This document shows, one piece after another, positions 896 through 3,809 of a DNA stretch of 64,000 nt. The notes beneath the pieces are model-generated. The model was not told the DNA's origin and made no database searches. It saw only the letters and a program-made list of their open reading frames with translations. Within the stretch, counting starts at the first letter, position 1. Each line of letters opens with the position of its first letter. Origin of the DNA: Methylophilus methylotrophus DSM 46235 = ATCC 53528 (lineage in GTDB: Bacteria > Pseudomonadota > Gammaproteobacteria > Burkholderiales > Methylophilaceae); assembly GCF_000378225.1 (NCBI RefSeq), contig NZ_KB905141.1, forward strand, positions 171,143-235,142, in the 5' to 3' direction. The position numbers and the translations under genes are program-made.

Positions 896-2431
896 ATGTG
901 TGGAATTATCGGTATTGTAGGCAAGAACCCCGTCAATCAGCTGCTCTACGACGGATTGCTGGTCTTACAGCACCGTGGTCAGGATGCTGCTGGTATCGTC
1001 ACCTGTGATGGTAACACTTTCCACATGCACAAAAATAATGGCCTGGTGAAGGATGTATTTCATACGCGCCACATGCGTAACTTGATCGGTAATGTCGGTA
1101 TTGCCCATGTCCGTTACCCAACTGCTGGTTCTTCCAGTGCCGCCGAAGCGCAGCCTTTCTACGTCAATTCCCCATTCGGTATTGTGTTGGGCCATAACGG
1201 TAACCTGACCAACTCCGAGCAACTCAAATCTGAAATGTTCAGGCAAGACCTGCGTCACATCAATACCAGTTCTGATTCAGAAGTGTTGTTGAACGTTTTG
1301 GCGCACGAGATTGAACATACTTCTAAAAACGCATTGTTGAATAGCGACATGGTATTTGATGCCGTGGCTGGCGTGCACAGACGTTGTAAAGGCGCTTATG
1401 CGGTAGTGGCCATGATTGCCAATTTTGGTCTGCTGGCATTCCGTGACCCACATGGCATTCGCCCATTGGTCATTGGTAAACAAGAGACCGATAAAGGTAC
1501 CGAATATATTGTTGCTTCTGAAAGCGTGGCGCTGGATGTTCTGGGTTTTACCATATTGCGTGATGTTGAGCCAGGTGAAGCCGTATTCATTGATATGGAC
1601 GGCAACTTGTTCAGCCGCCAGTGTGCCGAAAACCCAACACTGACCTCCTGTATTTTTGAGTACGTTTACCTGGCCCGCCCTGACTCAGTGATCGATGGTG
1701 TGTCCGTGTACCAGACCCGTCTTGATATGGGTACTTTGCTCGCCGAGAAAATCAAGCGCGAATGGGCCGATAAAAAGATTGATGTGGTCATTCCTATCCC
1801 AGATACCAGCCGTCCAAGTGCGTTGCAGTTGGGCATTGCGCTGGGGCTGGATTACCGCGAAGGTTTTATCAAGAACCGTTACATCGGTCGTACCTTCATT
1901 ATGCCTGGCCAGGCACTGCGCAAAAAGTCTGTACGCCAGAAACTGAATCCGATCGGCATTGAGTTTAAGGGCAAGAATGTGTTGCTGGTAGACGATTCGA
2001 TTGTACGCGGCACGACTTCGCAACAAATCGTGCAGATGGCGCGTGATGCGGGCGCCAACAAGGTATATTTTGCTTCTGCAGCGCCACCAGTACGCTATCC
2101 GAACGTGTATGGCATTGATATGCCTAGCCGTCATGAGCTGTTAGCGACTAATCGTACAGATGAAGAAATCTGTGCCGAAATTGGTGCTGATGCTCTGATT
2201 TATCAGGATCTCGATGCGCTGCGCGAAAGCATTACCAAATCTAATCCTCATCTCAAAGAATTTGATTGCAGCTGCTTTGACGGCAAATATGTCACTGGTG
2301 ATATTGATGCGGCGTATTTAAACCGCATTGAGTCTGCACGCAGTGATATGAGTAAAAAACAGTTGCCGCCAAACTCAACCACGCAACTCGATTTGAACCT
2401 GTTATCTACGGATCTGGTGGGCGTGGAGTAA
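896..2431 (+). CDS. purF: Amidophosphoribosyltransferase (glutamine PRPP amidotransferase)
   Basis: First committed step of purine synthesis: PRPP + glutamine gives 5-phosphoribosylamine. The protein begins MCGIIGIVG, so Cys2 becomes the N-terminal nucleophile of the class II glutaminase domain (about 1-230). The C-terminal half is a phosphoribosyltransferase fold with the PRPP loop [13 protein letters not shown] near residues 363-375. At 511 residues it has the usual length. The start is fixed by the Cys2 requirement. It ends just before the riboswitch that controls metZ. Confidence 0.97.
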
Positions 2432-2464: not shown

Positions 2465-2548
2465 GAATTGCGCTGATTTGAGTGGCGAACTTTAAACGAA
2501 GCCAAACTCAGCTTGCGAGCGCATTATAAATACTGCTAAAGCGAGAGC
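2465..2548 (+). promoter_or_regulatory. SAM-II riboswitch upstream of metZ
   Basis: The leader contains the SAM-II core in order: TTGCGCTGATTT (2468-2479), then GCTTGC-GAGCGC (2511-2522), then ATAAAT (2525-2530) and GCTAAA (2535-2540). GCGC 2470-2473 pairs with GCGC 2519-2522 (P1), and the downstream AT-rich and GCTAAA pieces are the pseudoknot strand. This matches the published metX SAM-II aptamer closely. Between the conserved blocks an extra hairpin (about 2480-2510; gagt/actc plus ggc/gcc) extends the loop, a known type of SAM-II variation. It should bind S-adenosylmethionine and repress metZ. Recognised by eye, not by covariance search. Confidence 0.85.
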
Positions 2549-2554
2549 CCAAAG

Positions 2555-2590
2555 ACCCGTTTTAGCGCAATGCTAAAGCGGGTTTTTTAT
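2555..2590 (+). terminator. Intrinsic terminator / SAM-II expression platform
   Basis: Stem acccgttttagc (2555-2566) with gctaaagcgggt (2572-2583), one G-T wobble, loop gcaat, followed by a T-run. The 5' arm's tttagc could alternatively pair with the upstream gctaaa at 2535-2540 inside the aptamer. This gives mutually exclusive antiterminator and terminator structures. Confidence 0.9.
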
Positions 2591-2624: not shown

Positions 2625-3809
2625 ATGAACGATCAATACCATCTGGAAACGCTGGCAGTGCGTGCCGGCACACTCACCACAGAGTTTGGGGAAAACTCTG
2701 AAGCATTGTTTTTAAATTCCAGTTTCCGCTTTAAAAATGCGGCGCAGGCAGCGGCGCGTTTTGGTGGCACAGAACCGGGCAATATTTATTCACGGTTTAC
2801 CAATCCTACCGTGACTATGTTCCAAGATAAGCTGGCTGCACTTGAAGGCGCAGAGCAGTGTGTGGCAACCGCCAGTGGCATGTCGGCAATTCTTGCTTGC
2901 ATCATGGGTATTTGTAGCGCGGGTGACCATATTGTGGCTTCGCGCAGTATTTTTGGAACTACCGTTCAGTTGTTTACAAATATCCTCAAACGGTGGGGGC
3001 TGGAGGTGACGCTTGTTTCATTGACGGATGTCGAGGCCTGGAAGGCAGCAGCCAAACCCAATACAAAACTGTTTTTTGCCGAAACGCCTTCCAACCCATT
3101 AACTGAAGTGGGCGATATTGTCCAACTAGCGGAAGTCGCACATGCTGCTGGTGCTTATTTGGCAGTGGATAACTGCTTTTGTACGCCAGCATTGCAGCAA
3201 CCCCTCAAGTTGGGCGCGGATATCGTGATTCATTCCGCCACCAAGTATATCGATGGTCAGGGGAGGGTGCTAGGAGGGGCCGTGTTAGGCAACAAGGTGT
3301 TAATTGAGCCTGTCTATGCTTTTTTACGCACGGCTGGCGTGACCATGAGTGCATTCAATGCCTGGGTGTTCGTGAAAGGCCTTGAGACTCTGCAAGTGCG
3401 GATGGAGGCGCATGCAACACGTGCCTTGGCATTGGCGCAGTGGCTTGAACAGCAGCCTGGCGTTGAGCGCGTGTATTACCCAGGTTTGCCCTCACACCCG
3501 CAATATGCTTTGGCACAAAAGCAGCAGCGCTTAGGAGGCGGAATCGTGACATTTGAGGTCAAGCCTCGTGCGGGCCAAACTGCACAGGAGGCAGCGTGGG
3601 CTTTGATCGATGCGACGCGCCTGATTTCGATTACGGCAAACCTGGGCGACGCCAAGTCAACTATCACGCACCCGGCGACCACCACACATAGCCGCGTCAC
3701 TGCCGAGGCACGGGCTGAAGCAGGCATTAAGGATAATCTGGTGAGGATTGCGGTGGGCTTGGAGCATATTGAAGATTTGAAAGCGGATTTACAACTGTTG
3801 ACAGAGTGA
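2625..3809 (+). CDS. metZ: O-succinylhomoserine sulfhydrylase
   Basis: PLP enzyme of the Cys/Met metabolism family that makes homocysteine from O-succinylhomoserine and sulfide (direct sulfhydrylation in methionine synthesis). The PLP-binding lysine is Lys207 in HSATKYIDGQGRVLGG. The 394-residue length is typical. A MetZ rather than MetB/MetC call rests on overall similarity to the beta/gamma-proteobacterial MetZ type, on synteny behind purF, and on the SAM-II riboswitch in its leader. The start codon ATG at 2625 follows gaggaaac. Confidence 0.92.
   Translation: MNDQYHLETLAVRAGTLTTEFGENSEALFLNSSFRFKNAAQAAARFGGTEPGNIYSRFTNPTVTMFQDKLAALEGAEQCVATASGMSAILACIMGICSAGDHIVASRSIFGTTVQLFTNILKRWGLEVTLVSLTDVEAWKAAAKPNTKLFFAETPSNPLTEVGDIVQLAEVAHAAGAYLAVDNCFCTPALQQPLKLGADIVIHSATKYIDGQGRVLGGAVLGNKVLIEPVYAFLRTAGVTMSAFNAWVFVKGLETLQVRMEAHATRALALAQWLEQQPGVERVYYPGLPSHPQYALAQKQQRLGGGIVTFEVKPRAGQTAQEAAWALIDATRLISITANLGDAKSTITHPATTTHSRVTAEARAEAGIKDNLVRIAVGLEHIEDLKADLQLLTE

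Follow-up and report, generated by a model that had tools for sequence, protein, structure and literature searches.

A hairpin-expanded SAM-II-like riboswitch predicted to control transcription termination before metZ in Methylophilus methylotrophus

The window analysed here is a stretch of 64,000 nucleotides from contig NZ_KB905141.1 of Methylophilus methylotrophus DSM 46235. Between positions 2435 and 2627 it contains, in order on the + strand, a promoter, a SAM-II-like element, an intrinsic terminator, a GAGG sequence and the start of metZ. The end of purF is at 2431, 3 bases 5' of the -35 box. The promoter (2435-2463) is of the sigma-70 type, with TTGACA at 2435-2440, a 17-base spacer and TTTAAT at 2458-2463, and from its position the transcript is predicted to start at about the first base of the P1 stem of the element. 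The presumed regulated gene, metZ (2625-3809), encodes O-succinylhomoserine sulfhydrylase, its product scoring 687.7 bits with NCBIfam NF006003 (cut-off 522) and 580.6 bits with TIGR01325 (cut-off 510). Its ribosome-binding site, GAGG at 2617-2620, lies outside the switch. A small hairpin, GTCCG/CGGAC, can be seen by eye at 2595-2608, between the terminator and the ribosome-binding site, and also in some close relatives. At the window edge (1-64) there is a 12-base tandem repeat, GTTGAACCCAAA, in five copies by eye.

The element begins with the P1 5' arm, GCGCU (DNA GCGCT; 2470-2474), which pairs with the 3' arm AGCGC (2518-2522). This is followed by L1, GAUUUGA (DNA GATTTGA; 2475-2481), and by an extra hairpin (2482-2507) between L1 and the P2 5' strand, in which 2482-2486 pair with 2501-2507. 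The P2 5' strand, CUCAGCUUGC (2507-2516), includes GCTTGC at 2511-2516. The P2 3' strand, GCUAAAGCGAG, occupies 2535-2545, where GCTAAAGCGAG is read in the window. P2 pairing involves 2507-2509/2543-2545, 2511-2512/2541-2542, 2513-2514/2538-2539 and 2515-2516/2535-2536, and the 3' end of the extra hairpin overlaps the P2 extension. With the numbering of the SAM-II crystal construct mapped onto the window, we take the pocket to be 2477-2479, 2513-2516 and 2535-2540. U2477-U2479 are then U10-U12, U2513, U2514, G2515 and C2516 are U20, U21, G22 and C23, and G2535-A2540 are G42-A47. An earlier note on this DNA had described the SAM-II blocks as present in order with a hairpin inserted in the loop, and direct reading bears this out, coordinates included.

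The intrinsic terminator (2552-2588) has a stem of 2552-2566/2572-2586, with a folding energy of -21.0 kcal/mol, and a T-run at 2583-2588. Its 5' arm, CGUUUUAGC (2558-2566), with TTTTAGC at 2560-2566, is also the putative antiterminator partner of 2535-2543, the part of the P2 3' strand that would double as the antiterminator strand. The 3' arm of the terminator, GCTAAAGCG (2572-2580), is identical to 2535-2543; this repeat of the pseudoknot strand had been recognized before, but as almost exact, when it is in fact exact. When the leader (2432-2624) was compared with 200 shuffles, one folded equally well or better (z -3.2).

In the 64-kb window no RNA family reaches its Rfam gathering score, which is a threshold of the model and not a biological feature. 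The element matches SAM_alpha (RF00521) in the right place with 18.6 bits (E 0.042 in 261 bases), below the cut-off of 36, and SAM-II long loops (RF01726) with 18.3 bits (E 0.34), below the cut-off of 44. The significant covariance match to SAM-II by which the earlier note would have judged its claim was therefore not obtained from the window alone. Across the whole genome, the element is second (E 0.109) among SAM_alpha matches, behind a 19.7-bit match inside sequence that reads by eye as recA coding sequence. Rfam alone was rejected as proof, with the window under both SAM-II cut-offs and a coding-sequence match scoring higher; it is neither proof nor exclusion of SAM-II, and the case rests on relatives. 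Matches to RefA9, which has the highest bit score in the element region (19.6, E 0.87), Trp_leader and mir-1471 are all below cut-off and were taken as chance.

Relatives were gathered from Methylophilaceae. A MetZ search of 187 genomes of the family found the protein in 173 at E<=1e-100, and upstream DNA was taken for 130 metZ genomes (30 loci and 100 stretches, one a 107-base stub). A core-block pattern had a single match in 98 of the 130 loci. Of the elements so found, the 73 distinct ones were aligned, with P1 and the hairpin as structure, to give model R1. A pattern scan of 261 loci left 19 without a match, the 107-base stub among them. The 119 family records include one that was misparsed (L027) and one second, chance match (L029). 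Model R1 matches 160 of the 187 Methylophilaceae genomes at E<=0.01, so that the element is not a chance occurrence, and in the M. methylotrophus genome it has one match at this threshold, before metZ, with no second SAM-II. Beyond the family, R1 matches 148/281 class genomes at E<=0.1 and, at E<=0.01, 170/250 order genomes and 28/249 phylum genomes, these three samples overlapping.

Outside the family, most of the matches listed are 53-57 nt, and it is these compact relatives that connect the element to SAM-II. Fourteen of 15 compact relatives found with R1 match SAM_alpha at E<=0.1, and five exceed the cut-off of 36, the best with 42.1 bits; locus L308 scores 41.7 bits. Among 20 Methylophilaceae loci, SAM_alpha matches 11 at E<=1, with L124 alone over the cut-off at 36.9 bits, so that the relatives over the cut-off range from 36.9 to 42.1 bits. 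Of 12 further loci, the seven that are compact all match at E<=0.05 with scores up to 35.8, still below the cut-off, and at this threshold the five with long inserts have no match. In the sets examined, long inserts accompany loss of Rfam score. Taken with the pocket, a gene context that includes metK and covariation at one P1 pair and in outer P2, the compact relatives support the SAM-II identity claimed earlier, and homology of the window element to SAM-II is hardly in doubt.

The SAM-II pocket residues U10-U12, U20, U21, G22, C23 and G42-A47 are described as fully conserved (PMC3764141). All 13 are present in the window element. The blocks GATTTG, TTGC and GCTAAA are kept exactly in 95 of 103 R1 matches (in 100 loci), and of the eight matches with altered blocks three read as losing a pocket base. 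The invariance of these core blocks within the family is partly by construction, because the patterns used to gather the family set require them.

Base pairs were counted in three sets, of 73, 211 and 110 distinct sequences, the last set comprising the distinct members of the 115 loci parsed out of 117 from the pattern scan. The shuffle statistics ignore relatedness. Of the 211 sequences, 208 have the fifth pair of P1, against a shuffled mean of 191.5. At 2508/2544, U-A (71) and C-G (25) account for most of the 110 sequences among the matches listed, which are paired in 97 cases against 77.6 shuffled. The outermost pair, 2507/2545, is formed in 72 of these 110 (61.4 shuffled) and in 153 of 211 (136.2 shuffled). 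There is no excess in the 211 sequences at 2511/2542 (183 against 181.8) or 2512/2541 (194 against 192.6), and the inner P2 pairs have hardly any or zero variation, with no covariation. The equivalents of 2507/2545, 2508/2544, 2511/2542 and 2512/2541 are missing in 54, 23, 26 and 16 of 118 class and order sequences. Two of the P2 U's were counted one base off the crystal register; this alters no count, because these positions are invariant in the sequences used for counting. With the fifth pair of P1 and the outermost two of P2 covarying, the alignments argue for the P1 stem and P2 H-type pseudoknot of SAM-II.

The genes that follow the element also have a bearing on its ligand. The 126 strong non-family elements, which are the better-scoring R1 matches from the class and order samples and not a random set, precede metZ (92), metK (15), metH (4), metX (3), metF (2) or none of these five (10), so that 116 are before one of the five. 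The 15 before metK, the SAM synthetase gene, are those at L187, L195, L292-L294 and ten more. At L228 (101-154 and 214-268), L254, L248, L309 and L312 there are SAM-II-like elements in tandem, spaced by about 100-170 bases. It could be argued that a SAM-II descendant now prefers another ligand, such as SAH or methionine, and works the same terminator switch, since relatives are also found before metH and metF, genes of the SAH-homocysteine-methionine cycle. However, metK and metZ are plausible SAM-repressed genes, and the sulfonium readers U11 and U21 and the adenine and methionine readers U44 and A47, in the roles described in PMC3764141, are all kept. A change of ligand is therefore very unlikely, and SAM is preferred as the signal.

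The promoter is conserved with the element. A promoter score of at least 9/12 is reached in 113 of 117 distinct family upstream stretches, against 2/117 shuffled, and the -10 box is 6 nt before P1 in 89 of the 117. Outside the family this score is reached in 81 of 124 (1 shuffled), with more varied distances to P1. Promoters just before P1 and methionine or SAM genes downstream were noted for SAM-II by Corbino 2005. The placement of the elements here is that of SAM-II, before methionine and SAM genes and with a promoter a few nucleotides from P1. This start at the aptamer, as predicted, would also leave no upstream room for a leader peptide, which speaks against a protein- or ribosome-controlled attenuator. 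An attenuator would share the terminator and antiterminator anatomy, and Trp_leader has a weak match here (16.4 bits, E 0.7), but it is the SAM-II pocket blocks that are conserved, and compact relatives exceed the SAM-II cut-off. The probability of such an attenuator in place of a riboswitch is close to nil.

Conservation of the antiterminator pairing was examined across the relatives. Of 119 family records, 105 have a full 9-nt complement of GCUAAAGCG (G-U allowed) no more than 80 bases away, and the mean longest complement is 8.6 against 5.1 shuffled (n=119). In the non-family records the full complement is found in 47 of 126, and the mean longest is 7.1 against 5.1 shuffled. The fold analysis took 77 of the 119 family and 76 of the 126 other records, identical leaders and those with a complement below 6, no T-run or no fit being excluded. 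Since the longest complement is below 6 in 3/119 family records versus 28/126 others, the bias from this selection is small in the family and real in the others. In 70 of the 77 distinct family leaders all nine positions of the terminator 5' arm are able to pair with the pseudoknot strand, while in only 10 are all nine terminator-paired. The UUU of this arm is invariant (77/77), its positions being terminator-paired in 48, 50 and 57. The contrast is weaker outside the family, where all nine are aptamer-pairable in 39 and terminator-paired in 17 of 76. What seems to have been kept in the terminator 5' arm is thus complementarity to the aptamer strand, which an antiterminator would require.

Stepwise folds agree with this. 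In folds of partial transcripts, which cannot represent the pseudoknot, the antiterminator is predicted for ends at 2567, 2572 and 2578 and the terminator for ends at 2583 and 2589. The mean energy of the terminator is -17.2 kcal/mol, versus -11.3 for the antiterminator; the terminator is the more stable, and the choice between them must therefore be kinetic. The antiterminator/terminator switch that the earlier note had read in this leader gains support both from these folds and from a terminator 5' arm that is more conserved than termination by itself would demand.

It is possible to imagine that the aptamer has its main effect on translation or mRNA stability, the hairpin being a plain terminator without SAM control. 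The metA element of Sinorhizobium meliloti is predicted to act on translation (PMC9373788), and 17 of the 126 non-family elements are without a T-run by the criterion used here. Against this, the metZ ribosome-binding site is some 70 bases past the aptamer, and what is conserved in the terminator 5' arm is its ability to pair with the aptamer strand. A translational read-out was considered and is disfavoured, and this reading as a whole is highly improbable.

The leader is very likely to be a hairpin-expanded SAM-II riboswitch, predicted to turn metZ off by transcription termination. Direct support comes from the sequence, its conservation, the covariation of some pairs, the gene context, the promoter position and the selected antiterminator complement. 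The RNA would begin at or adjoining P1. When SAM is scarce, the strand 2535-2543 would be free and would pair with 2558-2566 once this is transcribed, and the antiterminator would occupy the terminator 5' arm until polymerase is past. When SAM is plentiful, it would be bound by U2477-2479, U2513-C2516 and G2535-A2540, the residues of the pocket, locking the P2 pseudoknot. The strand 2558-2566 would then be available to 2572-2580, the terminator would form and metZ would be off. We infer from these features the binding of SAM and its affinity, as well as the direction and the size of the effect, and on the same grounds termination in the metZ leader can be expected with good confidence to depend on SAM.

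The extra hairpin is variable. In its three distal pairs both sides have changed in 12, 30 and 7 of 73 sequences, and the pairs are unformed in 11, 8 and 12. The core-to-tail length among genus-labelled family loci is 53 to 89 nt (two g16 entries, the misparsed and chance records, being excluded); therefore the hairpin varies inside the family, with compact forms alongside. In the insert-bearing forms among the matches listed, a negative folding energy is obtained for the first insert in 85 of 110 distinct sequences. A long L3 is also present in 51 of these 110, again among the matches listed, and folds into a hairpin in all 51, marking a second insertion point. A pattern scan of named records, covering at least 117 stretches, found insert-bearing forms before metZ in at least 53, metX in at least 30, metH in at least 26 and none of these in at least 8. 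Among the matches listed, the named records are of Methylotenera, Methylophilus, Methylobacillus, Methylovorus, Herbaspirillum, Collimonas and Noviherbaspirillum, the last three of which we take to be Oxalobacteraceae. Oxalobacteraceae-type elements before metX or metH have hairpin inserts in both the L1/P2 linker and L3 (L318, L327, L334, L363, L391 and others), and these five named loci are missed by the Rfam SAM-II models at E<=0.05. At L391 the SAM-II-like element is preceded, at a distance of about 100 bases, by a 67.5-bit match to Rfam RF02278, Betaproteobacteria toxic small RNA (1370-1432, - strand). In the data here, the hairpin-expanded form is best represented in betaproteobacteria.

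The extra hairpin is most likely an insert that is tolerated or has a stabilising effect. Its closing pairs, G2480-G2482/C2507-C2509, share their CUC with the partner of the P2 extension, G2543-G2545. Because both use the same CUC, the hairpin and the P2 extension would be mutually exclusive, and the hairpin, if it were a working part, would gate pseudoknot formation. Such a three-state switch, and with it a tuned SAM-II branch in betaproteobacteria with hairpins at two loop positions, is a tentative idea and rather unlikely.

The element has in common with SAM-II (the metA motif, SAM_alpha RF00521) P1, the UUU of L1, the P2 pseudoknot, all pocket residues, a promoter just before P1, a downstream terminator and a methionine gene. 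It differs in its 25-nt extra hairpin between L1 and P2 and in its score below the SAM_alpha cut-off. With SAM-II long loops (RF01726) it shares the enlarged loops and the same core, but again it is well under the cut-off, and that family comes from other lineages, namely Bacteroidetes and marine samples (PMC2864571). The earlier note had called a betaproteobacterial methylotroph example with transcriptional read-out notable; SAM-II in betaproteobacteria was already on record by 2009, in a paper that gives SAM-II as most common in Alpha-, Beta- and Gammaproteobacteria (PMC2704228).

The orphan 'metXZ' element of Leyn 2014 (PMC4239095) is in all probability the element of the window. According to the text of that paper, metXZ is 5' of metX or metZ in 35 betaproteobacterial genomes, with metZ in three Methylophilales, and has a pseudoknot and a speculated terminator/antiterminator. 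Compared by this description, the two share a betaproteobacterial host, a single element before metZ in Methylophilales, the pseudoknot and the terminator. They differ in that the metXZ section assigns no ligand and counts the element apart from SAM_alpha. Of the six conserved sequence regions of metXZ, region 3 is said there to have no complement; on the text description, we take it to be the P2 5' strand. If the two elements are the same, metXZ, described in 2014 before betaproteobacterial metX and metZ, responds to SAM by way of a SAM-II riboswitch.

A second record is Bp2_Cand287, a 2012 candidate upstream of methionine genes that was suggested to be a cis element (PMC3521395) and is now Rfam RF02424 (Bp2_287, Bp2_Cand287_SIPHT). 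The Rfam model, entered as a gene for a Burkholderia sRNA, represents the opposite strand. Of nine RF02424 matches at E<=1e-4, eight overlap R1 matches, and all nine are below the cut-off of 70 bits. In 100 order genomes there are seven such matches, each on the strand opposite to an R1 match, and in 80 genomes of another family there are two: one opposite a partial R1 match of 17.3 bits (L450) and one aligned mainly through the terminator, with no R1 match (L451). Neither the 100 nor the 80 genomes have a match over 70 bits; the best score, 39.3, comes from the family-loci set. RF02424 also lies opposite the element in 6/6 matches of the compact-loci set and 12/13 of the family-loci set, the 13th being beside it; at L308, for example, it matches 1501-1619 (-) and R1 1528-1581 (+). 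The window itself matches RF02424 with 12.5 bits on the minus strand and not on the strand of the element. Read backwards, the printed RF02424 consensus contains the SAM-II core by eye. The link to the element is likely, not proved, and there is a strong probability that RF02424 is the wrong strand of SAM-II-like elements. The 'sRNA' that was RT-PCR-positive in 2012 may be the terminated leader.

In the open-access literature no paper joining metXZ or RF02424 to SAM-II was found, and the hairpin-expanded form and the links to these two records appear to be new, which SAM-II in betaproteobacteria as such is not. If these links are true, one sRNA family of Rfam probably represents SAM-II elements on the wrong strand, and hairpins inserted at two loop positions are one way in which curated models miss SAM-II. 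A further described counterpart is the metZ leader of S. meliloti, with SAM-II, a predicted SAM-induced terminator and a terminated leader RNA (PMC9373788). That leader is alphaproteobacterial, and it is likened here by its description in the text; the two have in common a SAM-II element before metZ followed by a predicted terminator.
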